Shown here piece by piece: positions 1,503-64,000 of a stretch of 64,000 nucleotides of DNA (its first letter is position 1; the number at the start of each line of letters is the position of its first letter). A model generated the notes under the pieces. The model had not been told where the DNA came from and did not search any database. It saw only the letters and a program-made list of their open reading frames with translations. Source of the stretch: Caprimulgus europaeus (Eukaryota; Chordata; Aves; Caprimulgiformes; Caprimulgidae). The DNA lies in assembly GCA_907165065.1 (NCBI GenBank), contig OU015534.1:10423686-10487685 (forward strand), read 5' to 3'. The position numbers and the translations under genes were made by a program.

Positions 1503-1598
1503 GGCTCCCTGGGCAGGCAGAGCTCACTGAGCACCCCACCCTGCCCGAGCAGGCACTGCCGACCGTGGCCCGGATCATCGAGGCGCTGGAAAAACAAG
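1503..1598 (+). CDS. PIK3R3: PIK3R3 long (p85-type) form, BH-domain exon 1 of 5
   Basis: This is predicted to encode the first part of a RhoGAP-like breakpoint-cluster-homology (BH) domain, which in p85 subunits binds Rho/Rab-type GTPases and PTEN. The exon is 96 nt, bounded by a CAG acceptor behind a long pyrimidine tract and a GTATGG donor. It enters in phase 1 and leaves in phase 1. It has 31 whole codons and contains LPEQALPTVARIIEALEKQ, which matches [25 protein letters not shown] at p85alpha 117-142 in spacing and in the E-A-[IL]-E-K end. The matching p85alpha piece has 30 whole codons and the same phases. There is no stop. It could only be something else if a different p85-like gene lay here, but strand and phase tie it to the PIK3R3 exons downstream. 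Confidence 0.88.
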
Positions 1599-1830
1599 GT
1601 ATGGGCATCCACAGCACCCATCTGCAGGGTGTGGATGGGTGCACCCACTCTGCCCCTGTTCAGAGATGCCCCAAGTGCATTGCTAGAGCCAAACCTCTCC
1701 CCATGCACCCCAGTGCCCACACAGCGTGGGCAGCGTGAGGGAGCTTGGTGGTCTCAAATCTCTGCGTGCTTCCATTGCATTGGAGGATGTGGGGCTCAGG
1801 ACTGATTCCTCTCTCCTGGCTGCTCCCCAG
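1599..1830 (+). other. Short intron between BH exons 1 and 2
   Basis: The intron is 232 bp, with donor GTATGG and acceptor CCCCAG. Nothing else is apparent inside it. Confidence 0.85.
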
Positions 1831-1908
1831 GTCTCGACAGTGAGGGGCTCTACAGATCCAGCCCTGGAGCACTGGGGGATGCTGAGCTGCAGCAGGCTCT
1901 TCTGACGG
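1831..1908 (+). CDS. PIK3R3: PIK3R3 long form, BH-domain exon 2 of 5
   Basis: This 78-nt exon runs from phase 1 to phase 1. It completes the split glycine and then encodes 25 codons beginning LDSEGLYRSS, followed by a LGDAELQQALL helix. p85alpha has exactly 25 residues here (LECSTLYRTQ... to LDCD), ending at the same boundary. The arginine of LYR lines up with p85alpha Arg151, one of the two BH-domain arginines studied for GTPase-activating function. The donor GTAAGT is near consensus. The next intron is 8.8 kb. Confidence 0.9.
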
Positions 1909-2429
1909 GTAAGTCCCAGAGCCACGTCCCTCCCCGTATCCCCAGGAGGGAAGGGGGCTGTGAGGGTGATGTTGCTGGGTGAGCCAGGCACAGCAGGCAT
2001 AGGCTGTGGGCTCCAACCTTATTATGGCCCTAATTACAGCTCTGTAAGGCCCTGCCTGCATGTGAGCCCAAATCTGCTCCCCCAATACCCCAGTATGACG
2101 CTGCCAAGAGGGTTGTGAGTGCGGGGCTGAGGTGCTTCACCTGAAGCTGTATTTTTTTTTATTATTTTTTTTAGGGAGAAATGTGTTTTGTTTTGCAAAC
2201 CTCTAGGGTTTCTGTCTGAGAAGCAGGGCAGGGAGAAAGGGGAAGGAAAGGCTCATTTTTTAGGTGACTGAGAAGCGTTTGGCAGGACTGGGTGGCGAGG
2301 TCAGTTATAAGCAGGGTGAGGAGGAGGGAAAAACCATCTCCCCAGCCCCTTGCTCCTAAATTCAGGACTGGGATGGCACGGGGGCGTTGGGGACGTGATG
2401 GATCCCAGTCTGGGGAGGGGAGGGCATCG

Positions 2430-2720
2430 AGCACCTCACCCTCCCGGCCGCCGTGCCCGGAGGGCGGCACTGTGGCTCCAGGCACTGCGTCCCCCCGCCC
2501 TTGGGCTCCGCATCCCGGGAGCTGGGGAGGGGGGGACCCGGCGGCTGTGCCAGCGCCGGGAGCCGGCGGCAGCCGGGCCGTGTTGCTGGGGAGAAGGGCT
2601 GTGATGAAATCGCTATTTTAAGCAACATGACCTCATCGCTTCCCCCGCTCACCGGGAGCCGAGAACCCGCCGGGCGGGGGACGGGAGGGATGCGGGAGAG
2701 GAGATGTGGGGGGGTCCTAG
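2430..2720. promoter_or_regulatory. Intronic GC/CpG-rich patch, candidate regulatory element
   Basis: This is a local cluster of CpG dinucleotides inside an otherwise CpG-poor intron. It is interrupted near 2605-2640 by a short AT-rich core (CTATTTTAAG, then TGACCTCA). Such a core in a CpG-rich setting is typical of enhancers or minor promoters. That is inference only; no TATA box or exon is recognisable. Confidence 0.3.
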
Positions 2721-4098
2721 GGCTGCTCCGTCCCCGCTGCCCGAGGAGGGCTCTGCTCCCCCGGGGGTGCTGGGGACACGGTGCCCCACACCTCCGCTGG
2801 CAGAAGCCCCCGCTGCAGTTTGGGGGAGGCAGGAGCTGCGGGGTGCCTTCGCCTCCAGCCTGGTTTCCCGATGATCTCCAGAGGAGGTGAAGGGCTCCAG
2901 AGATCAGTCCCCGCGGCCCCGGGCACTGATGCCCGGGCTGGGCAGGGGCAGCTACAGCAGCGTGAGAAGGACACTTCGCTTTGTGACGGGTCCTTCATCC
3001 TCCTCACGCAGCCGGTGCAGCATCCCTGCTGCACAGGGCTCCCCGGCAGCACCGCAGCCGTCACCACCGATGTTCTGCCCGCTTCAGGAGACCCCACCAG
3101 CCCCGAGGCAAATCCCACTGGCTTTGCCAGAGCCTGTGCTGGAGCTCTGAGCAGCTGCTGTGTCCATGCAGGTTTTCATCTCCCATGGCAGGAGAGGTGG
3201 GAAATACCATCGTGGTTTTCAAACCATTTGACAGCCCTGGAAAATCCCCAACAGCCCCAAGTGACTTGATGCTCCCGAGCCCTCCATCTCCACTAGGACC
3301 TAAATAAACTCTTTTATTTGGCAACTTATGGGGCTGCCCTGTGCACTCAGCAACACTGAGCTGGGCAAAGCTGGAGCTCTCCAGAGCTGTGTGGAGGGAG
3401 TAGGACATGTCACACATTTGCTAGCTCTCAGATGAAGGAGATGATGCTCAGCCCTGCCAGAGGGATGCTCTGCAAACAGGGTGGGGATAACATTCCTGCC
3501 AGGCCCAAGCATCCCGGCAGAGCCCAGGCATAGCAGCCTGCTCCCCGCACAGCCTCCTGCAGACCCAAGACCTATCAGTGCTTCCCCAGAGCCCTGCTGG
3601 AGCCCAAACCGGGCTGGGGAACTGGCAGGAGACCATCTCTGCTTTGGACTCCATACATACCCCCCCCCATTGCATTTGGTGGGGTGAAACATCCCTGCCA
3701 AAAATGGGAGTTTGCGTGCCCCATGCACAAGATGGCAGAGGCAAGGGTTGTGTTTCTCTTTCTCCCCTGCTCCTGATGATCCACCCCTCCATCACCTCAC
3801 CTCTGCCAGCAGCCCACCTGCAAAAGCTGAGCTCCATCTTGGGAAAAGGGGGAGAAATCAGAGCCAGGGCTGGTGGTGGCTGGAACTGAACCCGTCCCTG
3901 CTAGGGGGGAAAACCAGATTCCCACCGGGGGTTTCAGCTTACTTGCGAATGCCCAAATAGTGCTGGTGTTCGACAGTGGTGGCAGGAAAACTGCTGGAGC
4001 GTGCGAGGAAAAAGGGGTAGGGGCTGGAAAAGTTTGGGTGATGGTTTTCTAACCCCCAAATCTTAATGTGTCAGAGAAGACAGGGTGTTTTATACTCT

Positions 4099-4383
4099 GA
4101 ATCACAGAATCACAGAATGTCAGGGATTGGAAGGGACCTCCAAAGATCATCTAGTCCGGGAGCAGGAACACCTAGATGAGTTCATACAGGAAGGCATTCA
4201 GGTAGGTCTTGAATGTCTCCAGAGAAGGAGACTCCACAACCTCCCTGGGCAGCCTGTTCCAGTGCTCTCACTGTTACTCTCACAGTAAAGAAGTTTCTTC
4301 TGAAGTTTAAGCGGAACCTCCTGTGTTCCAGCTTACACCCATTGCCCCTTGTCCTATCATTGGACAGCACTGGAAGAGCATCT
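4099..4383 (-). mobile_element. CR1 LINE 3' fragment
   Basis: Read on the minus strand, this ends in repeated ATTCTGTG octamers (4099-4118 on plus), the hallmark of avian CR1 3' ends. It also contains the familiar CR1 blocks reading on plus as GGAAGGGACCTCCAAAGATCATC and CTCCACAACCTCCCTGGGCAGCCTG. It is about 285 bp, 5'-truncated like most CR1 copies, and only moderately diverged. No coding capacity remains. Confidence 0.93.
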
Positions 4384-5039
4384 GAACTTCCAGAGGGGAA
4401 GAGTTTCTCTGGGGACAAGGAGCTGTGCAAGTCAGAGTGGTCCTGGCTGTCTCAGGGACCCTGTGGGCATCATGCTGTCCCTGAGGCTGGGCAGCACAGG
4501 CACCCATCTGAGCTGTTCTTGATCAAACCCTTTTCCCATCCCTGGCTCTTTTGGAGCCCTTACCTGTGGGGGACAGCCTGAGGGGGCAGCCCCCAAGCTG
4601 AACATCACCCAGGCTTTGGGATGAAGTTTTCCCATCCTCATGGGGCTGTGGCAGCATCAGGCACAGTGAATGTGGATGCTGCGTGGCTCCATGTGGCTTT
4701 ACAGCTTGGGCTGAGCCTGTCCCCATCCCAGCGCTGGTCACATCCTGCAGGACAGTGGCATCTGACCACTGGCTAGAGCCTGTGCACCAAGCTTGGTATT
4801 TCCACGTTGAACAATGCAATAAATATTATTTATAGGGGGAAAGAAAAAGAGAAAGCAAAGACAGAGTTCATCAATAAAGGGCTGATCAGTGAACAGAACT
4901 CCGCTGCCACTGGGCTGAGAAGCCACCAGGGCTGGCAAGTAAAGCATGGACCGAAGGGTGGTTGTACTTCCAGCCAGCTTATGTGGCTCCAGAGAATAAT
5001 TAATTGTTTTAGGACACTTGGTGTTTAATTCAGACCTTT

Positions 5040-5230
5040 ATGCCGCGAGCGGCGAGCGAGGCTGTGCGATGTCACTGAACACGGGAGTCAGAGTCACGTG
5101 GCAGCAAGGAAAAGGGACTTAACGAAAAGCCACAGCCCCACACGGGGCCGGGGGGACTCGACAAAGGGCTTCGGGGGATGAGTCAGTCAGGAGCCTCGCT
5201 GCAGCTGCAGAGAGAGAGTTATGGGCAGAA
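5040..5230. promoter_or_regulatory. Motif cluster in intron, candidate enhancer
   Basis: This CpG-containing segment has a perfect E-box CACGTG at 5095-5100 and a perfect AP-1 site TGAGTCA at 5179-5185, and it lies between GC-poor flanks. Isolated motifs are common by chance, so confidence is low. Confidence 0.22.
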
Positions 5231-8200
5231 AAATAAGCTTTAGACAGCAGTGGCAGCATGCAGTGCTTGCCCCGGCTGCCCCCCCATGCTCCCTGCAGTG
5301 CCCTGCTGAGGGACTGCTTCATGGTCTGGGGACATCTCCATGCCAGGGCCACCACTGACCCAGAGGGTTTCCAGACCCCAGCATTCCTGCTGTACCCTGT
5401 GTGTGGCTTAGGGACTGTATGGAGTGCAAGGGATGAGGCAAATCACCTGCAAAGTCCCTGGTGCCTGTGGACACAAGGTATATAAGCCCATCTGGTGTCC
5501 AGAGTGAGGTCTTCGCACCCCTCTTCCCCTGAGATGTGCTGGGCAGCCTTTTCCTCCCAGCTGCCACTGAACCAGGAAATGTGGGACCTTCTCTGGCCAG
5601 TGGCAGCAGAGCTGTGGGTGGACTGGTGGGCGCGGGAGCCCTTTGGAGCTGAGGGACCTGAACTGGGGTGGCTTGGCATGGGGACGACTGCAAAGTCCTG
5701 TGTGTAGTGGCTGGGTAGCACTTTGCCACTTCTGGGTACGGATGGTCTGCACCTCATCCTTCCTCCCTGGTGGGAGATGAGGTGCAGAGACCCTACAGAG
5801 CCCTCCTACCCTGTGGCTCCCTGAGTGCCCTGTATGGCTCAGATGGGGCTGAACCCATCCAGGATGGTGGTGAAGCACTGAAACATTTTGGATAACCCAT
5901 GCTCTGATCTGGGCTCTGGGGTCTAGCTGCAGATACAAATACTGAGACCTTTCCCCAGCTACAGGGGCAGCACCGGGAAAAGCCTGTGCTGCTGGTGGGG
6001 CCAGGCAGGAGCTGCCTGCACCCCGGGGTGCTGGGGCGAATCTGGTGGCAGCACGAGGCGGATTGGAGCCGGTGTCTCCAGGCGTGCCATGTCTGCGCTG
6101 CCATCCTGCCCGCTTTCATCTCAGCCCCGGCACAGAGCAGTCTGCCTGGAGACACGCTCACGTGCCCAGGAATTAGGTCAGGCCTCGGTGGGGATTAGCA
6201 GGCGGTGGTGGGCTCCGGGGCTTCACCAGGGCTGCTGGGAGCTGCTGCTGGGCAGAAAGAGCTGGGCTGGAGTGAAGAGCAGCTTGGGGGGCCTCACACT
6301 GCTGCCCCTGTCATCACGGTGTGGATGCCCAGGGAGGGAGCACATCCCCATCCTCATCCCTGGGATGCCAGAGGGGGCTGGAGGCCCCCAACGACTCTGG
6401 TTTCCCCTTGCCAAGCTGTTAACCCCACCACGGTGACTTTATCCCAATCTCAAGGCGTCCTAGTGCCTACTGCGCTGCTTTTTTATTTATACCTGCAGTG
6501 GAAATAAACCCTACGTTGTCAGAGCCTGGCAAGAGGCATGAGCTCATCTCTTATATTTGGCAGTGATGAAAGAAGAGCAAATAAATGGCAGCAGCACAGA
6601 CATCCCTGCCAGACCCATCAGAGTGAAATGGGGGTGAGCTTTTGCCATCCCCTCCCATAGCTGCTGGGGAAACTGAGGAAGGGGACTGGCCTCGGGAAGC
6701 CGAGGCTAGGGAAGGCAGCCTCACTGGTCCCAGCACCCCTGCCCTGGTTGAGCACAATCTGGGGGTATGCTGAGGTGAAACCCAGCTTGGAGGGTGTTTG
6801 GGGCTGCCAGGAGCTCCTGGGCAGGGGGTGTCCTGGCAGCTGCCACATCCCCAGCACAAGGTACCAGCGGGCTGGTTCAGAGATGTTACAATGATGCTGA
6901 ATCAACGCTGGGGAAATATTCCCTGATTTGGTGCACAGTTCCCCAGTAAACCCCCAGTGTGGGATGCCCAGGAGCCTCAAACACCTGGCTGGAGCTGGGG
7001 GCTGTACGGGTCCTTGTGCAGGCAGCATCCATGCGGATGGGAAGTTATGCAGACTGGGTAAAAAGGACATCTCTGCAGCATCAGCTGATGCTTAAACCTG
7101 AAAGGTCTGGAAGGGGTAGGGAAATTCCCAAGTTAGTATTTAAGTCAGGCCCAGGTCTGGGTCATTTGGGTGCCCCTCTGCCATGGGGACTGTGCACCCA
7201 AGAGTATCATGCTGCAGTGGTACTTGGCAGCCAAGGTCCAACTGACCCTGTGGGACTCCCTGCTGCAAGAGGGGCTTGTGGGTGCTGGGCAAGATCTACA
7301 CCCTGTCACCCACACACTGGCCGGGGACATGGGGCACAGCCGTCACCTGTGTCCTTGGGCAGGGGACAGCCAGTTACTGGGACTCGCTCAGTTCTCCCTT
7401 CAAACCAACCCCCTCACCTCCTCCCTGACACCTCTTGGTTAAACATCCTCCGCATTTACCGAAACTAAGGACTTACTCACACCTCCCCGGCTGGCTCAGC
7501 TGCCGGGAGAGGTCCTGGTGTTTCCTGCCCAGCCTGACTCAGCCCAAAGCCCCGGCACCTCTCTGCCGCTGCCGGGATGTGGGGTCTGGCATCCCTCCGG
7601 GAGAAGGCTGGGAGCACCCATTGCTTTTCCCTCTGAGCTGGTGGTCATCCCACGCACCCCTTCCCCAGCCCCAAATTTATTCCTGCTTTTCATCCCCCAT
7701 GGGCAAGGGATGCTCTCCACTGGTCCCTGGCCACTTGCTTGCTCCACCAGTAGGTCAGCAAGCAGGTTGTGTGCTGCAGGGGGTTGGTATGGGGTTGAGG
7801 TTGGGGTTTTGGGGTGTTTTCCTTCTATTTGTGGCAGGTGGAATCCTGCCACATCAGGATTCATCCCAGGAATCCCCTCCATCATTCCGCAGGGGAAGGG
7901 ACGGGAACATCTGGAGAGCAGTGGGAGAGCTGTGACTCATCCTGCAGCATCATTAACTTCTTATAGCTGGTTATCATCTCCCTCTGATAAGGAGAGAGCA
8001 GCATCCTTGGGGTCAGGCTGGTGGTAATCGGTTGGGAAGGCTCCAGGATTAACCCTTTCCTACCTGCCAGCCGAGCAGCTTGGACCACATTGAAGTCTGC
8101 TCTCAGCCCAACAGGGAGCCCAGCTCACCATGGCAGCTCCAGAGGAGGGAAGGGAGCTGGGGCAGGAGGATGCCATTGCATCTCCAGGAGGATGGGGGCA

Positions 8201-10719
8201 ACAGGCTAATGGCTATTTCTAGCCAACGTGCCAAGGAGAAGGGTGCCACCAGTAATCAGTCCCGGTTACGGGGTGTAAATCCCTCCACCCCGGTCTCCCC
8301 ATCTTGCTTCTCTCTGGATGTAAAGATGTTTTCGAGTCTTGCTTTGAAACTGGCTGAGCCTTCCCTTTGAACACCCCCCTAGGCCCATGTCTAAAGATGC
8401 AAATGAGCTAATTAGGCTGAGGTGGAGCCCGGGGCTGATTGCCTGGGGCCAGCACCTGGCAGCAGCCCCTTCTCTGCACAGGAACAGCTTGTGGCTGCTC
8501 TCCCCAGTCTGCACCAGCATCCTTAAGACAAGTGACAGGTCCCTGCAGAAACCTCCCTGGTGAGAAGGGTTTGGTGTTTGCCTGGTGCATCCCGCTGATA
8601 GGAGCAGCTCTCTTCAATGAGCCCAGGCAACGAGGCCCCAAGACCTTCCCAGCAGCATGCCTGGGTTTTAGCCACACACTGGTGGGTTTCAGCCCAAATC
8701 AGAGGTTGGAACATCTTGTAAGATCCCTAACCCCACTCTCATCCCCTGCCCAGCTGGAGCCAACCTGCCAGCTCACTTCTCCAAGTGCTAGCAAAAATGG
8801 GGAACGGTGTCATCCCCTCACAAACCTCAGTAGAAATGAGCCTTTTGGCCAGCTGAGAAGGTCCAGAAGTGTGTCTGGGCAATAGGAGCAATAGCATGGA
8901 CCACAGCAGGGCCAGGGTGCAGCAGGCGAGAGCTGGTCAACCCTACCTGCCTCGAGGACGCTGAGGGCAGAGTGGCCCGTGGGGTGATGTGGCGACATTG
9001 GGGGGTACCAGAAAGGCAGTGCCACCCTTGCTCTGGGTTGTGTTTGGCCATGCTGGATGGCTGCCTGCCCCGTCATGGTGGCATCTCTCCCAGCTGTCCC
9101 CGTGCTGCCCTTGGGCACGGTTCCCAGCCGGCCGGGTGCTTGCTCCTGAAAATGAGGTAGCGTCTCCAACGGCTGGGTTAAAGGCTTTGCTTCGGGCATT
9201 GGTCAATCTGTTTTCTCTCTGGTCTCTGAGCCAAATGGCAGGCACTGTCCATAAGGGACCTGCCACAGCTTCTTGTTCCCAAGCAGGCGGAGGGGAAGGC
9301 AGGCAGGCCCACGGTGGGGATGCCCCAAGGAAACAAAATCAAGGTCAAGGTGCCCAAAACCAGGCTTTGCCAGGAGTTAGGAAACAGCTTGCCCCAGGAA
9401 ACAGCTTTTCTCTGCTCTTTTGGGTTTATCACCCCAGAACGGAATACAGCCACACATGGTCAGCTGAAATGGTTGGAGACTCAAAGTGTTTTCTGCTGGA
9501 AAATGCTGGGCTGGGAGATGGAGTGTGTCCCAGAATGGCAGCAGTTTCAGTAAAGCTGCATTTGGGGGTGAAGAGCCAGAGAGGGGAGGGGAAAGAGGCT
9601 CAGAGCAGGGCAAGCCCACCATCTTCTTCTCAATCATGACACACCAGGCCATTTGGGGTCTGACATGTCACCTTTAAGAAAGTGCAAAACTTGATCTTTT
9701 TTCAGTATTCTCATTTAGAAGCAAGAAATTCAGTTTCTACAAAGAAACCATTTCAAAAGATCCCAAATATCTTGGGCTTTTTTATTATTCCCCCTTCCCC
9801 AAGATTTCTCCTACAAGGAGAATTTCAAAACATTGCATTTGGCTCCGGTTTGAATCAAAGGCGGATTTTGAAAGCTCTAGATCTTTGCAAAAGGGACCGT
9901 TACCCTCCGGACAGCCACCTCCTGGCCCAGCTGGGCTGAGAGACCTCCAAGAAAAACGCATGAGGCAATACCAAAGGGTGCTAAAAGGGTTCTTCACCCT
10001 GGACCTCGGTGAAGCAATGTCCCTGCACTGGCCCAGCCGTGGGGTTCAGAGGGACATGTCCCACCCTTTGGCTCCCGCTGGACCATGGGACATTTCTGCT
10101 CAGAGAGCTGCTCCTGTCCCAAGCCCAGGCTGGGTGGGCTCAGCCTCCCCCAGGCACTTTGCCCCATCCTGGAGCATCCTTCACCACTTCCCCCAGGGCA
10201 GCTGCCTTCTGGAGCATATTCACAGGATTTTGGGCTCACTGGGGTGACATGGGCCTTCAGCAGTGTGCCTTGCCTGGGGACCATAACCCCGCTTCATGGA
10301 TGCATTTTTCCAAGCAGTTCCCGGGGCTGGCACACCATGCATGGCCCTTGATGGCCTGAGGGCGCCTGGGGAAGCTGCTCAGCCTGTCCCATGGGTGCTA
10401 TCCTGCACTGGGACCCCGGTGGGATGCCGAGAGCCCCTGCCCCATGCACTGGGTATATAGTGCACAGGAGGCAGAGACGCTGCCTGATGCTCTCCATGGG
10501 CACATGGAACTCTGGGTCAGTGGAAACTGGGACAGGAACATTTGCTGGGGTGAGGTTGTCAGTGAAATCATGGGCTGCCCTACCTGGGGGATGGGGACAC
10601 GGGCAAAGAAATCAGCACCTATGTCCAGAGGAAGGTCTGCAGGGATGGAAGAGCTCCAAGCTCTGCACTGCAGGGGCAGCACCACTGGCTAAGGGCTCAT
10701 GTTGGCTCTTTCCCTGCAG

Positions 10720-10851
10720 ATGCCTCGGCTGTGGACATGGACATGTACGATTCCCAGACGCTGGCGGAGGCCCTGAGGTGGTACCTCCAGGAGCTCCCAT
10801 CACCCCTGATCCCTCCAGCTCTCTACAGCGACTTGGTGCACATGGCTCAAG
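10720..10851 (+). CDS. PIK3R3: PIK3R3 long form, BH-domain exon 3 of 5
   Basis: This 132-nt exon runs phase 1 to phase 1, with acceptor CCCTGCAG and donor GTGAGC. After the split aspartate come 43 codons, including LAEALRWYLQELPSPLIPP and ALYSDLVHMAQ. p85alpha has LADAFKRYLLDLPNPVIPA and AVYSEMISLAP at the same place (about residues 182-211). The L-P-x-P-[LV]-I-P motif is the classic RhoGAP-fold signature of the helix preceding the GTPase groove. The exon is one codon longer than in p85alpha. This is the strongest single piece of homology among the upstream exons. Confidence 0.93.
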
Positions 10852-13696
10852 GTGAGCACGCCCGGCCTCCCCCACACCCAGGACCTTTGTGGGACTGGAG
10901 GAGCTTTGGGAAGCCCCTAGAAAGGCTCCCCAGCACCTTCAGAGCATGTCCTGACCCCATCCCCTGCCCAATGCTGCACAAAGGGCAGATCCTGAGAAGG
11001 ACCACTGGGAGATCCCCTGTGCAGGAGTGATGCAGCAGCTTCTGAGAGGTGCTCTGGGAAAGTGAGAGGAGATCCAGGGGGCAGCTTCACCCTTACCACA
11101 GCATGGTCCTCTCCTGCTGCAGTGCCCAGAGGAGGAGGTGCTGCCTGCCGGGACGGGCGGCTGCCAAGGCTGGGTGATGCTGGCCCCAGAAGAAAGCATT
11201 ATTATAATATTTTGGCTCTGCTGCCTGGGAATTTTTTACTGTAATCTCGTTAACTCTTGGCTTTATATGGTCATAGAAAATTCTCTGCTTTTCCAGCTTA
11301 GTGCCATTAGGAAGTGCCTTTAGGTCCCTGCAAGCTTTCCAGCCTCTGTGCAAATGTACAAGACTGACAAGGTTTTGATTTTGTTTACATCTTATTTAAA
11401 TAAACAAGGCAGGGCTCATACCCAGGTCAGCAGAGTCTACGGTCCATCCCAACAGGGAGCCTGGGCCAAAACCCGTTTCAAATGAGTCCTCACAAAGCCA
11501 CTCAGCCTCTGCCAGCCCAAGGCCCTGCAGGCATCACCAGACACAAAGCCCTTGCCCACCATGTTCAACAGGACCTGAACCCCTTGCCACCTTCGACACC
11601 AAGATTTCCCCTTTCACAACAGCTCTCTTCTCGTGGCTGGTCGCTGCAGCATCCTCCTTTCCTGTGCATCACCTCCTCGTCCTAAGCCAGATTAATGCTG
11701 GGGCAGATCGTGCTCTTGGCTGCCTTAAGAGGCACTAAAAGATCACTGGTGGCCAGACCAGTGTGGCCTTTCCTGCCATGTCCTGGCAGGACACCTTTCC
11801 TGGTGGGAAAAGGCAATGGGCTCTTTGTGGCCTCCACAAAGACAATGAGGGATAACTCACATCCTATCCTCCTTGCCCTGCACAGAGACATGGAGACAGA
11901 AAAAACACTCCTGGGATCGGTGGCACCGAGATGCTGCCTTCCCCTCACCCATCTGAGAGAGGGGAAATCAAAGGCTGCCTCCCTTCCAAGGATAAAAACA
12001 CAATTAAGAAGCAATTAGCTGGGTTGCCTCGTTAGGCAACATCAAAGGGAAGTGCCTTTCCCTGCAGCCTGCACTGAATGGGGCTCTGCTCCTGGCACAA
12101 CAGGGGCAGGAATGGAGGCAAAACCAATGGGGAATTTTTCTGGGGCTTTAAAAAAAAAAATAAAACCATAAGTCTTTCAGGAGACGGTGCTGGTGTTTGG
12201 CAGTCTGCCCTGCCAGCAGGCTCCTTCTGCCCCACTGGAGGCTGCAGGCTCGATAAGTGTCAAGCTGACCACCTGCAAAAGGTCAAAAATTCCCCCTTTG
12301 GCTGTGGACCTTTCCCCTGCAGCCTCCCCTGGGTGCAAAAAAGCAGCTGATGGGGGTAGGGGAGGCCTGGAGCAAAGCCAAACATCCCGCAGGAGCAGCT
12401 TGTTGGATATGGGACATACAAACACACCACCCCCTCGCCATCCCAGCCAGGTTGTGGACCTGTGTCAGGGAGGATGCTGGACACCTCACTCCTCCGGCTC
12501 TGGTGCACCCCAGCCCTGAGGATGGATGCTGGGAGCTGGCTGGTCATCAGCCAAGCCTCAGCCCTGGTGCAAAGAGCTGCTGGGAGCCGAGTCAGCACCC
12601 AGCCAAGCCAGGCTTTGAAGCCAGCTGAGAGCAACACAGCCCTGGGGACCTCCCTGTCCCCCGCAGATGAAAGGGCCAGGCCAAGGCGGGGATGGAGGAT
12701 GGCTGGAGAGAGGCTGTTTCCCGTGCCCGGGGCAGGATCACAGTTCCAGGCTGCTGAGCTCACAGCTCACAAGACTGGGGAGCCCTGGCCAAGGCTGCCA
12801 GAGGGCACCGGGGATACAGGGCGACACTGGTGGGAACACCACAGGGCTGTGGGCTGCCCAGGGCACCCACAACAGGGCTTCTGGTGGCACCTCCATGATG
12901 TGCAACACCATTAGGTGCCTACTTGTATTCATATGGGCAATTCAAGCATCGTTGGAAGTAGTAATCCTCCAACCAGCCCTCCCTGCTGCTGCGTTTCAGG
13001 GGGCAAGAGAGACCATGCTGGGGGGCTGCAGGGACCTCCCTACAGCCCTGCCTGTAGCTCTCAGCCCAGGTGCAGCTCCTTTTCTCCTAAAAATCCTTTT
13101 TCCTCCCAACTTGCTTTTTCTGCAGGGGAGGGCTGAGCCTTTAAATTTGGCAGATCTTCCAGCTGGTGTCTGTTTCCCCACCTCTACTTTGCTCTGCCTT
13201 TTCCATGGCTTTGGTGTGCACCAGGGCAGAGCTCTTGCAGTTCTCCTCTGCTGGAGCAGCAGTGAGGAATGTTTAGGTGCAGCCCCTGCCAGATGAGCAG
13301 CTCAGCTCCCAGTGCTCCCTCCCTTGCTCTGCTGACAGGGGGAATGTGCTAAAGTCACCCTACATTCTGATCTGGGGTGGTGTGAGTGGGTAAATGGGGC
13401 TGGCAGCCTCCAGCAAGAAGTGGCTGAGACCCCCAGTGCATCACCTCTGCCTGCCCTGCACTCCCTGGGGTACCCACGTGCCCCATAGCCTGTCTGTGGG
13501 AGGGGATGGGCTGCAGAGAAACAGCCATGGTTTCGGGGGTGAGAATGAGGTCAGGTTTTTTGGTACTCTGTGGGGATTAGAGACCTGCCACATCTCATGT
13601 CATGTGTGCTGGCAGGTGCCAGGGTCCCATGAGACGCAAGGGAATGCTCCGACTGCCTGAATTGACCTTTCCTTTCCTGTTTCTCCTCCACTGTAG
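10852..13696 (+). other. 2.8 kb intron between BH exons 3 and 4
   Basis: The donor is GTGAGC and the acceptor CTGTAG, behind a TTTCCTTTCCTGTTTCTCC pyrimidine tract. I found no repeat family or exon inside it. Confidence 0.75.
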
Positions 13697-13898
13697 AGAC
13701 CCCTGGCCTGGAGGAGTGTGGCCAGCGAGCCAGAGCCCTGCTGGCCCCCCCAGCCCTGCCACAGCCCCAGGCACTGCTCCTGCGCCAGCTCGTCCGACAC
13801 TTCTGCCACCTCTGCCAGGGCACCCGCAGGAGCCGCCTCTCACCCCGGCTCCTCGGAGAGCTCTTTGGTGAGCTGCTCCTTCGCCCTGCAGCAGCCAG
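13697..13898 (+). CDS. PIK3R3: PIK3R3 long form, BH-domain exon 4 of 5
   Basis: This 202-nt exon enters in phase 1 and leaves in phase 2, through donor GTGAGG. It begins with the split glutamate that matches p85alpha Glu212. It then has 66 codons, including LLLRQLVRHFCHLC and LSPRLLGELFGELLLRP. These match LTLQYLLKHFFKLS and NARVLSEIFSPMLFRF of p85alpha with no gap. The arginine of LLLR is the 62nd residue after that glutamate, exactly the position of p85alpha Arg274, the residue reported as essential for Rab-directed GAP activity. The exon is GC-rich and Ala/Pro/Leu-biased at its start but open throughout. Confidence 0.93.
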
Positions 13899-14262
13899 GT
13901 GAGGTGCCCCGGCCATGGACGGGACAGGGTGGGTGGGAGAAGGGTGCCCGTAGCCAGGCATGAGCACGCTGGCCCCCAACCCAACTGGTGTTGCTGGATG
14001 ACAGCCCACCAGCGGCTCAGCCCTGGTGTTTTCCCAAGGGGGAGCCCAGAGCTGGGAGCGTCCACCCCAGTTGTGATGCTCTGACATTGCACCTGTTCCT
14101 ATGTCAACCAGGCACGATGTCACACACTGAACTGGGATATGCAGCATCACCCCAGTCCCACAAGACATCCATCAGGGCAGATGGCTCCTATCCTGGGGGC
14201 GTGGGGATCTCATGGGGGCTGAGCTGCTGGCACCCTCACAGACCCTCCCCTTCTCCCCACAG
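13899..14262 (+). other. Short intron between BH exons 4 and 5
   Basis: The intron is 364 bp with donor GTGAGG and acceptor CTCCCCACAG. Nothing else is recognisable. Confidence 0.85.
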
Positions 14263-14348
14263 CACTGAGGCAAGCCCCGAGCTCCGCACAAGGATCCTCG
14301 AGTCCCTCATCGTGGCCGGTGAGGCAGCGGAGGTGCCAGCAGCCCCCG
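14263..14348 (+). CDS. PIK3R3: PIK3R3 long form, BH-domain exon 5 of 5 (join to SH2 exons)
   Basis: This 86-nt exon enters in phase 2, completing a serine that aligns with p85alpha Ser279, and leaves in phase 1 at CCCCCG|GTAAGA. The 28 whole codons include LRTRILESLIVAGEAAEVP. They match the last BH helix and linker of p85alpha (LIKVIEILIS, then a Pro/Ala linker). The single trailing G plus CT at 61053 makes alanine, giving [14 protein letters not shown]. p85alpha reads [13 protein letters not shown] across the same phase-1 junction. The exon therefore has the right phase, strand and residues to splice over the p55 first exon into the shared exons 46.7 kb downstream. Confidence 0.9.
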
Positions 14349-44019: not shown

Positions 44020-45240
44020 GGTGACAGGCCCCAGCCGGGACGGGGACAGCGGTTCTACCTGCAAAGGGTCTCCTGGGCCTGAGCCGCGGCCCTCTCCCCC
44101 AGACCCCATCCCCAAAGCGGGGCCGGCCGTGGATGGAGAGTAGCAGGTAGGCCCGGCGCTGCGGGGAACCGACCGGAGGGGGTGCATCCCCCAGGTCGGG
44201 GTGCGCAGGGGGCGTCTCCCCGCCGGTAACGCCGGGGCGGGCTGTGGCGGGGGGCGCAGGCCCAGCCCGGGGGCTGCCCCGGCCGCCTGAGGGGAGGTGG
44301 GCGCCCGTGGGGCCCGCGCGCCCCCTCAGCCCCGTCCCCGCTCTCCGCCTCAGCGCTCGCCTCTCTTTGTCCCGCTTAGTAACTGGGGCTGCCAGCCAAT
44401 CGCCATCGAGCCGGCCGGCTTTGTCGCCAGCTGATTGGGTGGGCCGCTAGGAACCCTCTGCCAATCCCGGCGCTCGCTGCTCCCTCAGACAAAGGCAGCA
44501 GCTCTGGCAACTGGGCTCGACTCCCCCCGCCCCCTGCGCGTGCTCGGCGGCAGCAGCCCCCCGGCGACAGGCCAGCCGAGGGACCTACCACCTTCCCCGC
44601 TCGCCTCAGAAAAGGGGGGGGAGGGGTCGCTAGGAAAAGGTGGCGAGAAAGGCGGCCGAAGTGGCGAAAGAAACCCAGGGGAAAGTGAGGAAAGTGGAGA
44701 AGCAGATTGTGGTTTTGTGCCGAGCTTTCTTCCTGGGCATGCCTTTCCGGCGTGAAGAGGGACGTTTCTCCTCTCTGCTTTTTCCTGCCCACCCCCTTCT
44801 CTGCCTCGTGGAAGCGCCCGCACGCACGGCCTCTCCGTCCTCCTCGAAGGGGTTAAAAAGCCGGCAGGAAGCCCCGCCCCCGCGCCCCTCCCGCGCGATG
44901 CCGGGGGGCGTGGCCTCGTCCTCGGCAAGAGGCGGTTGGCGACGGTTGGGCCCCTCAGAGCCTCTTAAAATGACACCGAGCGGGGCCGCCCGCGCCGCAG
45001 AGAGCCCGGGGCCGCGACCCGCCGCAGCCGCCCGGGGCCGCCGCCTGCGCCGCGCGGGGCTGCTAGCTGGGCACGGCGGGCGAGGCCGCCGCGGGCTGCC
45101 CGCTCAGCGCTGAGGCGAGCCCAGCAGAGCCGGCGGGGACCGCGGGCCGAGCGGCCCCCAGCGCTGCCCGCCCCGCGCTCGGGCTCCGCGCCCGCCGTTA
45201 TTGTTGCCCGCCGCCCGCTCCTTTCTCCTCCGCCGGCGGA
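44020..45240 (+). promoter_or_regulatory. PIK3R3: CpG-island promoter of the p55gamma transcript
   Basis: This is the densest CpG stretch in the window, ending about 470 bp before the p55 start codon. It contains three CCAAT boxes: CCAAT at 44396-44400, ATTGG (reverse) at 44434-44438 and CCAAT at 44461-44465. The 38- and 27-base spacings are usual for NF-Y promoters. GC boxes of the Sp1 type follow near 44872-44925. There is no clear TATA box. Dispersed initiation somewhere between about 44500 and 45000 is likely. The position inside the intron of the long form copies the internal p55alpha promoter of PIK3R1. Confidence 0.75.
44898..45113 (+). other. Upstream ORF in the p55 leader
   Basis: An ATG at 44898 opens 71 codons, and an in-frame ATG at 44970 opens 47, both ending at TGA 45111-45113. 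The peptide is Arg/Ala/Gly-rich because of CpG-island composition and matches no family I know. Whether it lies in the mRNA depends on the start site. If present it could lower translation of p55gamma. Confidence 0.35.
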
Positions 45241-45332
45241 AAGAATTCATCCAGAGACCGAAATCTCTCCTTTTCATCCGTTTTCTTCCCACCTCCCTTT
45301 TTGTGAGAGAGGTTTATTTTGCCTTCAGCCCG

Positions 45333-45368
45333 ATGTTTTACAAATACCCCGAAAACGGCGATTTTTAG
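45333..45368 (+). other. Short upstream ORF, 11 codons
   Basis: ATG at 45333 encodes MFYKYPENGDF and then stops. It lies within the likely p55 leader, 340 nt before the main ATG. A further short uORF begins at ATG 45445. A strong acceptor-like site (T-run, CCCCTAG) ends at 45561, so part of the leader might be spliced out or might begin there. Confidence 0.4.
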
Positions 45369-45708: not shown

Positions 45709-45814
45709 ATGTACAACACGGTGTGGGATATGGACCGCGATGACACGGACTGGAGGGAAGTGATGATGCCCTATTCCACTGAGCTGATATTTTACATTGA
45801 AATGGACCCTCCAG
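45709..45814 (+). CDS. PIK3R3: PIK3R3 p55gamma-specific first coding exon
   Basis: This encodes the 35-residue N-terminus unique to p55gamma, the short regulatory subunit that binds and stabilises the p110 catalytic chain and recruits it to phosphotyrosine proteins at the membrane. The sequence starts [18 protein letters not shown] and ends YIEMDPP. It differs from the human p55gamma sequence as I know it at only two positions, both in the first 13 residues (human SMDRDDA, here DMDRDDT). I chose the ATG at 45709 for that match; it has G at -3. An in-frame TTG upstream is not used. The donor at 45815 (CCAG|GTAGGG) leaves phase 1, so G plus CT gives alanine before LPPKPPKP. The p55-type exon and BH exon 5 thus compete for the same acceptor at 61053. 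Confidence 0.97.

Positions 45815-45950: not shown

Positions 45951-46012
<62 letters not shown>
45941..46012 (+). repeat. G11 run followed by (AT)30 microsatellite
   Basis: Eleven G residues (45941-45951) lead into 30 uninterrupted AT units (45953-46012), about 130 bases after the p55 exon donor. It is likely highly variable in length among individuals. Confidence 0.98.
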
Positions 46013-61052: not shown

Positions 61053-61164
61053 CTCTTCCTCCAAAGCCCCCCAAACCAATGACTCCAGTCAATACAAATG
61101 GAATAAAGGACAATTCCAGTTTCTCTCTGCAGGAAGCAGAGTGGTACTGGGGGGACATCTCAAG
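61053..61164 (+). CDS. PIK3R3: PIK3R3 shared exon: proline motif and start of N-SH2
   Basis: This 112-nt exon enters in phase 1 and leaves in phase 2 (CAAG|GTAAGC). It encodes [17 protein letters not shown], a short linker and [10 protein letters not shown]. The proline-rich LPPKPPKP motif can bind SH3 domains. WYWGDISR is the invariant first strand of the p85-family N-terminal SH2 domain, which holds p110 inhibited until a phosphotyrosine partner binds. The residues PMT and IKD favour PIK3R3 over PIK3R1 and PIK3R2. In p85/p55 subunits this exon is the first one common to long and short forms. Confidence 0.97.

Positions 61165-64000
<2,836 letters not shown>

Follow-up and report, generated by a model that had tools for sequence, protein, structure and literature searches.

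The PIK3R3 locus in Caprimulgus europaeus

The DNA considered here, a stretch of 64,000 nucleotides from Caprimulgus europaeus (C11:10423686-10487685, hereafter the window; positions before 1 lie upstream of it on contig C11), carries PIK3R3, a gene for a regulatory subunit of class IA PI3K, the family being described with two p85 subunits and three short ones. An earlier sequence-only reading of the window had proposed that PIK3R3 in this bird encodes a BH domain and thus a p85-type long form, p85gamma, mammalian PIK3R3 being described as yielding the short p55gamma. The gene structure for a third p85 subunit is indeed present and intact in this bird, made up of six long-form exons, five of them in the window and one upstream of it, and of a set of exons common to both forms that spans 61053 to window position 71500, past the window end. 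The features are as follows.

-3163 to -2848 (C11:10420522-10420837): PIK3R3 long-form exon 1 (SH3), 105 codons plus one base, phase-1 donor
1503..1598, plus strand: long-form exon 2 (BH exon 1), phase 1 in and 1 out, 31 codons; no match singly by tblastn
1831..1908, plus strand: long-form exon 3 (BH exon 2), phase 1-1, 25 codons, with the arginine equivalent to p85alpha R151; no match singly by tblastn
10720..10851, plus strand: long-form exon 4 (BH exon 3), phase 1-1, 43 codons; tblastn of p85alpha, E 3.9e-9
13697..13898, plus strand: long-form exon 5 (BH exon 4), phase 1-2, 66 codons, with the arginine equivalent to p85alpha R274; tblastn, E 1.1e-7
14263..14348, plus strand: long-form exon 6 (end of BH), phase 2-1, 28 codons, in-frame junction to 61053; no match singly by tblastn
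44050..45350, no strand assigned: CpG island, probable p55gamma promoter
45709..45814, plus strand: first coding exon of p55gamma (MYNTVW...EMDPP), the short form's alternative start
61053..61164, plus strand: first exon common to both forms, with the PPKPPKP proline-rich motif and the start of nSH2
63531..63629, plus strand: second common exon, nSH2

The gene was identified as PIK3R3 because its own later exons in the window do so. Orthology is borne out by the p55gamma-specific first exon and by the gene neighbourhood, in which a tetraspanin exon (C11:10410261) lies 10 kb upstream and a MAST gene lies downstream, approximately 54 kb beyond PIK3R3; the neighbours of human PIK3R3 are TSPAN1 and MAST2. 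When the p55gamma start was joined to the common exons, a protein of 463 residues was obtained, identical to human p55gamma at 424 of the 463 alignment columns. Residues 7-34 of the p55gamma exon also correspond to the tail of 5zut_A, a PDB chain that was deposited as PCNA and is a fusion with the N terminus of p55gamma. A perfect (AT)30 microsatellite (45953-46012) follows about 140 bases past this exon, and Rfam and tRNA scans of the window returned no match.

A p85-type reading frame from SH3 to cSH2

The five open exons that the sequence-only reading had placed on the PIK3R3 strand were confirmed at their coordinates, each preceded by AG and followed by GT, with phases of 1-1, 1-1, 1-1, 1-2 and 2-1 and, by direct reading, 31, 25, 43, 66 and 28 codons. 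Joined, they encode 197 residues, in which Pfam finds a single family, RhoGAP (expectation value, E, 4.6e-22; residues 21-166). Of 177,635 distinct PDB sequences, the p85alpha BH domain matches this frame best (E 3.5e-32, residues 6-185), followed by myosin IXb, of the next RhoGAP family (3e-15), with human p85beta at 4e-13. The score against the p85alpha BH domain is 115 bits, 55 bits ahead of the next RhoGAP family, while a 172-residue human p85beta BH fragment scores 45 bits against the same domain; by BLASTP, the bird frame is 37% identical to human p85alpha over 180 columns. Aligned to the human p85alpha BH domain, the bird sequence scored 297, and the highest score among 1000 shuffled versions of it was 59. 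A chance open frame is ruled out by the PDB sequence search, the Pfam RhoGAP match and the shuffles. Exon by exon, only BH exons 3 and 4 were matched by tblastn of p85alpha, and they were weakly matched in the whole-genome search (1,177,730,439 bases) as well (E 2.6e-4 and 0.0017); BH exons 1, 2 and 5 were assigned on account of the joined alignment, which runs over residues 6-185 of 197, and the shared phases.

The sequence-only reading had made the p85-type form depend on an upstream SH3 exon ending in phase 1, and such an exon was found 2.8 kb before the window. With the p85alpha SH3 as query, one strong match (E 5e-31) was obtained among the matches listed for the 100 kb upstream. The exon begins with an ATG at C11:10420522 in a good start context (CACCATGG), has an in-frame stop upstream and ends at a GTGAGT donor. 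The human p85alpha SH3 region gave 14 matches in the whole genome, of which three were strong, namely PIK3R1 on C37 (89%), PIK3R2 on C27 (63%) and the PIK3R3 exon on C11 (55%, E 3.5e-27), the fourth match being at E 0.008.

Fifteen coding exons joined at GT-AG junctions yield an intact frame of 731 residues (83.25 kDa). For the common exons, though not for the six long-form exons, a script picked the junctions that avoided stops and agreed best with human p55gamma. The alignment to full-length p85alpha pairs residues 3-725 of this frame with residues 2-722 (E 8.1e-301), and Pfam recognises SH3, RhoGAP (the BH domain, 78.3 bits with a cut-off of 24.5), the p110-binding iSH2 (PF16454, E 1e-65) and two SH2 stretches, corresponding to nSH2 and cSH2. 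Proline-rich motifs flank the BH domain on both sides in the conceptual protein, with ARPRPLPPPP before it. The proposal of a p85-type long form is thus upheld by an intact frame from SH3 to cSH2, by the SH3 exon and by the phases shared with PIK3R1 and PIK3R2. The first exon of p55gamma being intact as well, both a long and a short product could arise from this gene, as is the case for PIK3R1.

The notion that these exons are part of some unrelated RhoGAP gene situated by chance upstream of PIK3R3 draws on the abundance of RhoGAP exons in this genome (153 matches in a search with the family), but it deserves hardly any credence given the 55-bit lead of p85alpha, and it is contradicted by the p85-specific match, the SH3 exon, the intron phases and the in-frame junction to PPKPPKP. 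More thought is owed to a separate short SH3-BH protein, or inclusion of the SH3 and BH exons in another gene, such that they are transcribed and yet not joined to 61053. The last BH exon is indeed separated from the first common exon by about 47 kb and by the p55gamma first exon; however, the exon at 14263..14348 has a GTAAGA donor in phase 1 and its split Ala codon is completed by the 61053 exon, precisely as for the p55gamma first exon, which shares that end phase and joins 61053 too. The BH5 exons of PIK3R1 and PIK3R2 also end in this phase, and a separate product is regarded as very improbable.

The genome-wide RhoGAP search did not have any BH exon of PIK3R3 among the matches listed. It did reveal clusters of near-repeated two-piece RhoGAP matches (profile 3-97/98 and 98-146) on C22 (for example at C22:8.88-9.10 Mb), C32, C39, C40 and C42, and also on C12, C24 and C25, which suggests a strongly amplified RhoGAP gene family.

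Relationship to PIK3R1 and PIK3R2

The near-equality of codon counts with the p85alpha BH region, as claimed in the sequence-only reading, was verified within the same genome, where the SH3 and BH1-BH5 exons hold 111/30/24/43/66/26 codons in PIK3R1, 113/30/20/43/66/28 in PIK3R2 and 105/31/25/43/66/28 in PIK3R3, with identical intron phases at six of six junctions in the three genes. These counts and shared phases make the strongest case for an ancestral p85 layout as opposed to a newly assembled one. A MAST-family gene is, moreover, found on the contig of each, on C11 as mentioned above, about 16 kb from PIK3R2 on C27 and about 0.4 Mb from PIK3R1 on C37, as would be expected if the three were copies left by the vertebrate genome duplications; such an origin has been argued for PIK3R1, PIK3R2 and PIK3R3 (PMC8805411). 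The earlier proposal that the p85 architecture is ancestral to PIK3R3 is therefore supported by the phases and by the MAST genes alike. Elsewhere, at C36:2135088-2135896, a MAST-family match (PF08926) runs continuously over the domain, whereas the other copies are split in pieces; it is possibly a retrocopy.

In a tree of five sequences, which has no outgroup and does not resolve the order of duplication, PIK3R3 attaches between the PIK3R1 pair and the PIK3R2 pair. A recent duplicate of PIK3R1 was considered, and nesting with bird or human PIK3R1 was rejected by the approximately unbiased (AU) test (1.3e-5 and 1.7e-5), so the PIK3R3 long form is not a copy of PIK3R1. A grouping of PIK3R3 with bird PIK3R2 that leaves out human p85beta is less firmly excluded (AU 0.015; Shimodaira-Hasegawa test, 0.22).

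Compared with the known subunits, p85gamma matches p85alpha in its domains and their order and in the phases of six p85-specific exons, yet the two are only 43% identical in the SH3-BH part within this bird. With p85beta it shares the codon counts of BH3-BH5 (43, 66 and 28), the six phases and 46% identity in the SH3-BH part, but PIK3R2 resides at another locus (on C27) and its BH2 exon has 20 codons instead of 25. PIK3R2 is not known to yield a p55-type short form. Mammalian p55gamma is the product of the same gene, with the same first exon and the same SH2-iSH2-SH2 body; mammalian PIK3R3 is described without SH3 or BH, whereas the bird gene carries SH3 and BH exons in addition. PIK3R1, for its part, is reported to yield the short forms p55alpha and p50alpha besides p85alpha (PMC7458397).

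A second PIK3R1-like copy was noticed at C36:5426914-5427869 (loci L033 and L034), whose first common exon is interrupted by an in-frame TAA; it is possibly a decaying sex-chromosome copy of the C37 gene.

Residues of known function were compared at positions of human p85alpha taken from PMC6359268, the PTEN set comprising 17 positions defined there by mutation or docking model. R151, R274 and E137, reported in the same source as needed for the GTPase-activating protein (GAP) activity of p85alpha, have equivalents in p85gamma (R146, R270 and E132). The SH3 residues E19, E20, D21 and W55 are kept too, while the Rab5-binding L191 and V263 are not retained (Q187 and L259) and, among the dimerisation-linked BH residues I133, M176 and I177, only M176 is. 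PTEN-linked positions identical to human p85alpha number 5/17 in p85gamma, 6/17 in bird p85beta and 13/17 in bird p85alpha. Bird p85alpha (C37; loci L048, L036 and L031) has G at R151, K at R274 and T at M176, and thus does without residues tied in human p85alpha to GAP activity and BH dimerisation; p85beta, like p85gamma, keeps the two arginines linked to Rab GAP activity. Given these opposite patterns, of GAP arginines on the one hand and PTEN positions on the other, a division of labour between p85gamma and p85alpha in this bird is conceivable.

Coding constraint and the proposed long form

Over 137 ungapped codons of BH3-BH5, PIK3R3 and PIK3R2 are identical at 0.53, 0.66 and 0.28 of codon positions 1, 2 and 3 respectively (positions 1 and 2 against 3, Fisher p 1.7e-9), which shows long-term coding constraint; the Nei-Gojobori estimates for non-synonymous (dN) and synonymous (dS) divergence are 0.64 and 3.1, the latter saturated. 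The six long-form exons might nonetheless be a recently silenced relic, intact but untranscribed, with only p55gamma being made. A 2015 survey (Philippon et al. 2015, PMC4617754) noted p55gamma homologues as an exception, without the rho-gap domain, a statement in keeping with such a relic. Likewise, the conservation of BH is looser and the branch is long, as detailed below. Against silencing, the six exons are free of stops, frameshifts and lost splice sites, while the PIK3R1-like copy on C36, with its in-frame TAA, illustrates what decay looks like in the same genome. Neutral decay was simulated for the five BH exons alone, together with their splice dinucleotides, in 4000 trials at each level of divergence. 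All were still intact in 22% of trials when divergence was 2%, in 2.3% when it was 5% and in 0.025% when it was 10%; intactness is thus unlikely beyond about 5% divergence, and silencing, if any, would be recent. We consider a silenced relic improbable.

Several observations weigh against a functional long form and should be given their due. BH exons 1, 2 and 5 give no single-exon tblastn match to p85alpha, and in the joined 731-residue frame the Pfam SH3_1 score (23.4 bits) is barely above the cut-off of 22.9, with no stretch passing alone. That the common exons lack stops is in part built in, their junctions having been selected to be free of them. The codon-position signal spans the whole time since duplication and is compatible with recent silencing. 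Where the four other sequences agree throughout a column, PIK3R3 has kept the shared residue in 30/45 cases in BH as compared with 42/48 in SH3, and its branch is long (0.74; those of PIK3R1 measure 0.12-0.14, that of bird PIK3R2 0.26 and that of human p85beta 0.80). Lastly, no CpG island of at least 400 bases is found at the SH3 exon, the nearest upstream being at window -11900 to -11400.

That island is close to the tetraspanin exon and could serve either gene; a second one lies further upstream, at -39950 to -38300 on the same contig.

With all this considered, PIK3R3 very probably retains the full p85 layout, the long form p85gamma and the short form p55gamma coming from one gene, and we infer that p85gamma is expressed and functional. 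An upstream promoter would drive a transcript through the SH3 exon and the five BH exons, spliced to 61053, and this long transcript would be translated into an 83 kDa p85gamma composed of SH3, proline-rich, BH, proline-rich, nSH2, iSH2 and cSH2 segments. An internal CpG-island promoter near 45 kb (44050-45350) would furnish p55gamma from the same gene. Like its relatives, p85gamma would bind p110 via iSH2, and it would add the SH3 and BH functions of dimerisation and docking of Rab/Rho GTPases.

As to what is already on record, PIK3R3 is described as coding for p55gamma (PMC7458397 and PMC9127371), and it is from such literature that the long form is presumed to have been lost or silenced in mammals. 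The name p85gamma itself already appears in publications, where it loosely denotes the product of PIK3R3; in some of them it figures in subunit lists or tables that give no account of SH3 or BH. No PIK3R3 long form is described in the titles or abstract openings of the papers listed by searches of the open-access literature. A predicted long form may already figure, unremarked, in RefSeq or Ensembl gene models.

A wider scenario is possible, though doubtful as a whole: three p85s would be ancestral to vertebrates, with the third still made in birds, and perhaps in most non-mammals, the BH functions perhaps divided anew in this bird, and the upstream promoter in mammals perhaps surviving only as P3R3URF, the upstream reading frame of PIK3R3.

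With intact coding exons for a full-length third p85-type subunit in this bird, the textbook accounts of the PI3K-regulator family, drawn from mammals, may be incomplete for other vertebrates. If p85gamma is made, the SH3 and BH functions (dimerisation, GTPase docking and PTEN control) could be shared among three genes outside mammals, and PI3K regulation in chick models may not transfer directly to mammals. The mammalian PIK3R3 would then be a truncated gene, not the original state, and the order and date of the loss could be tested by comparing, across vertebrates, the region from the upstream neighbour to the p55gamma exon.

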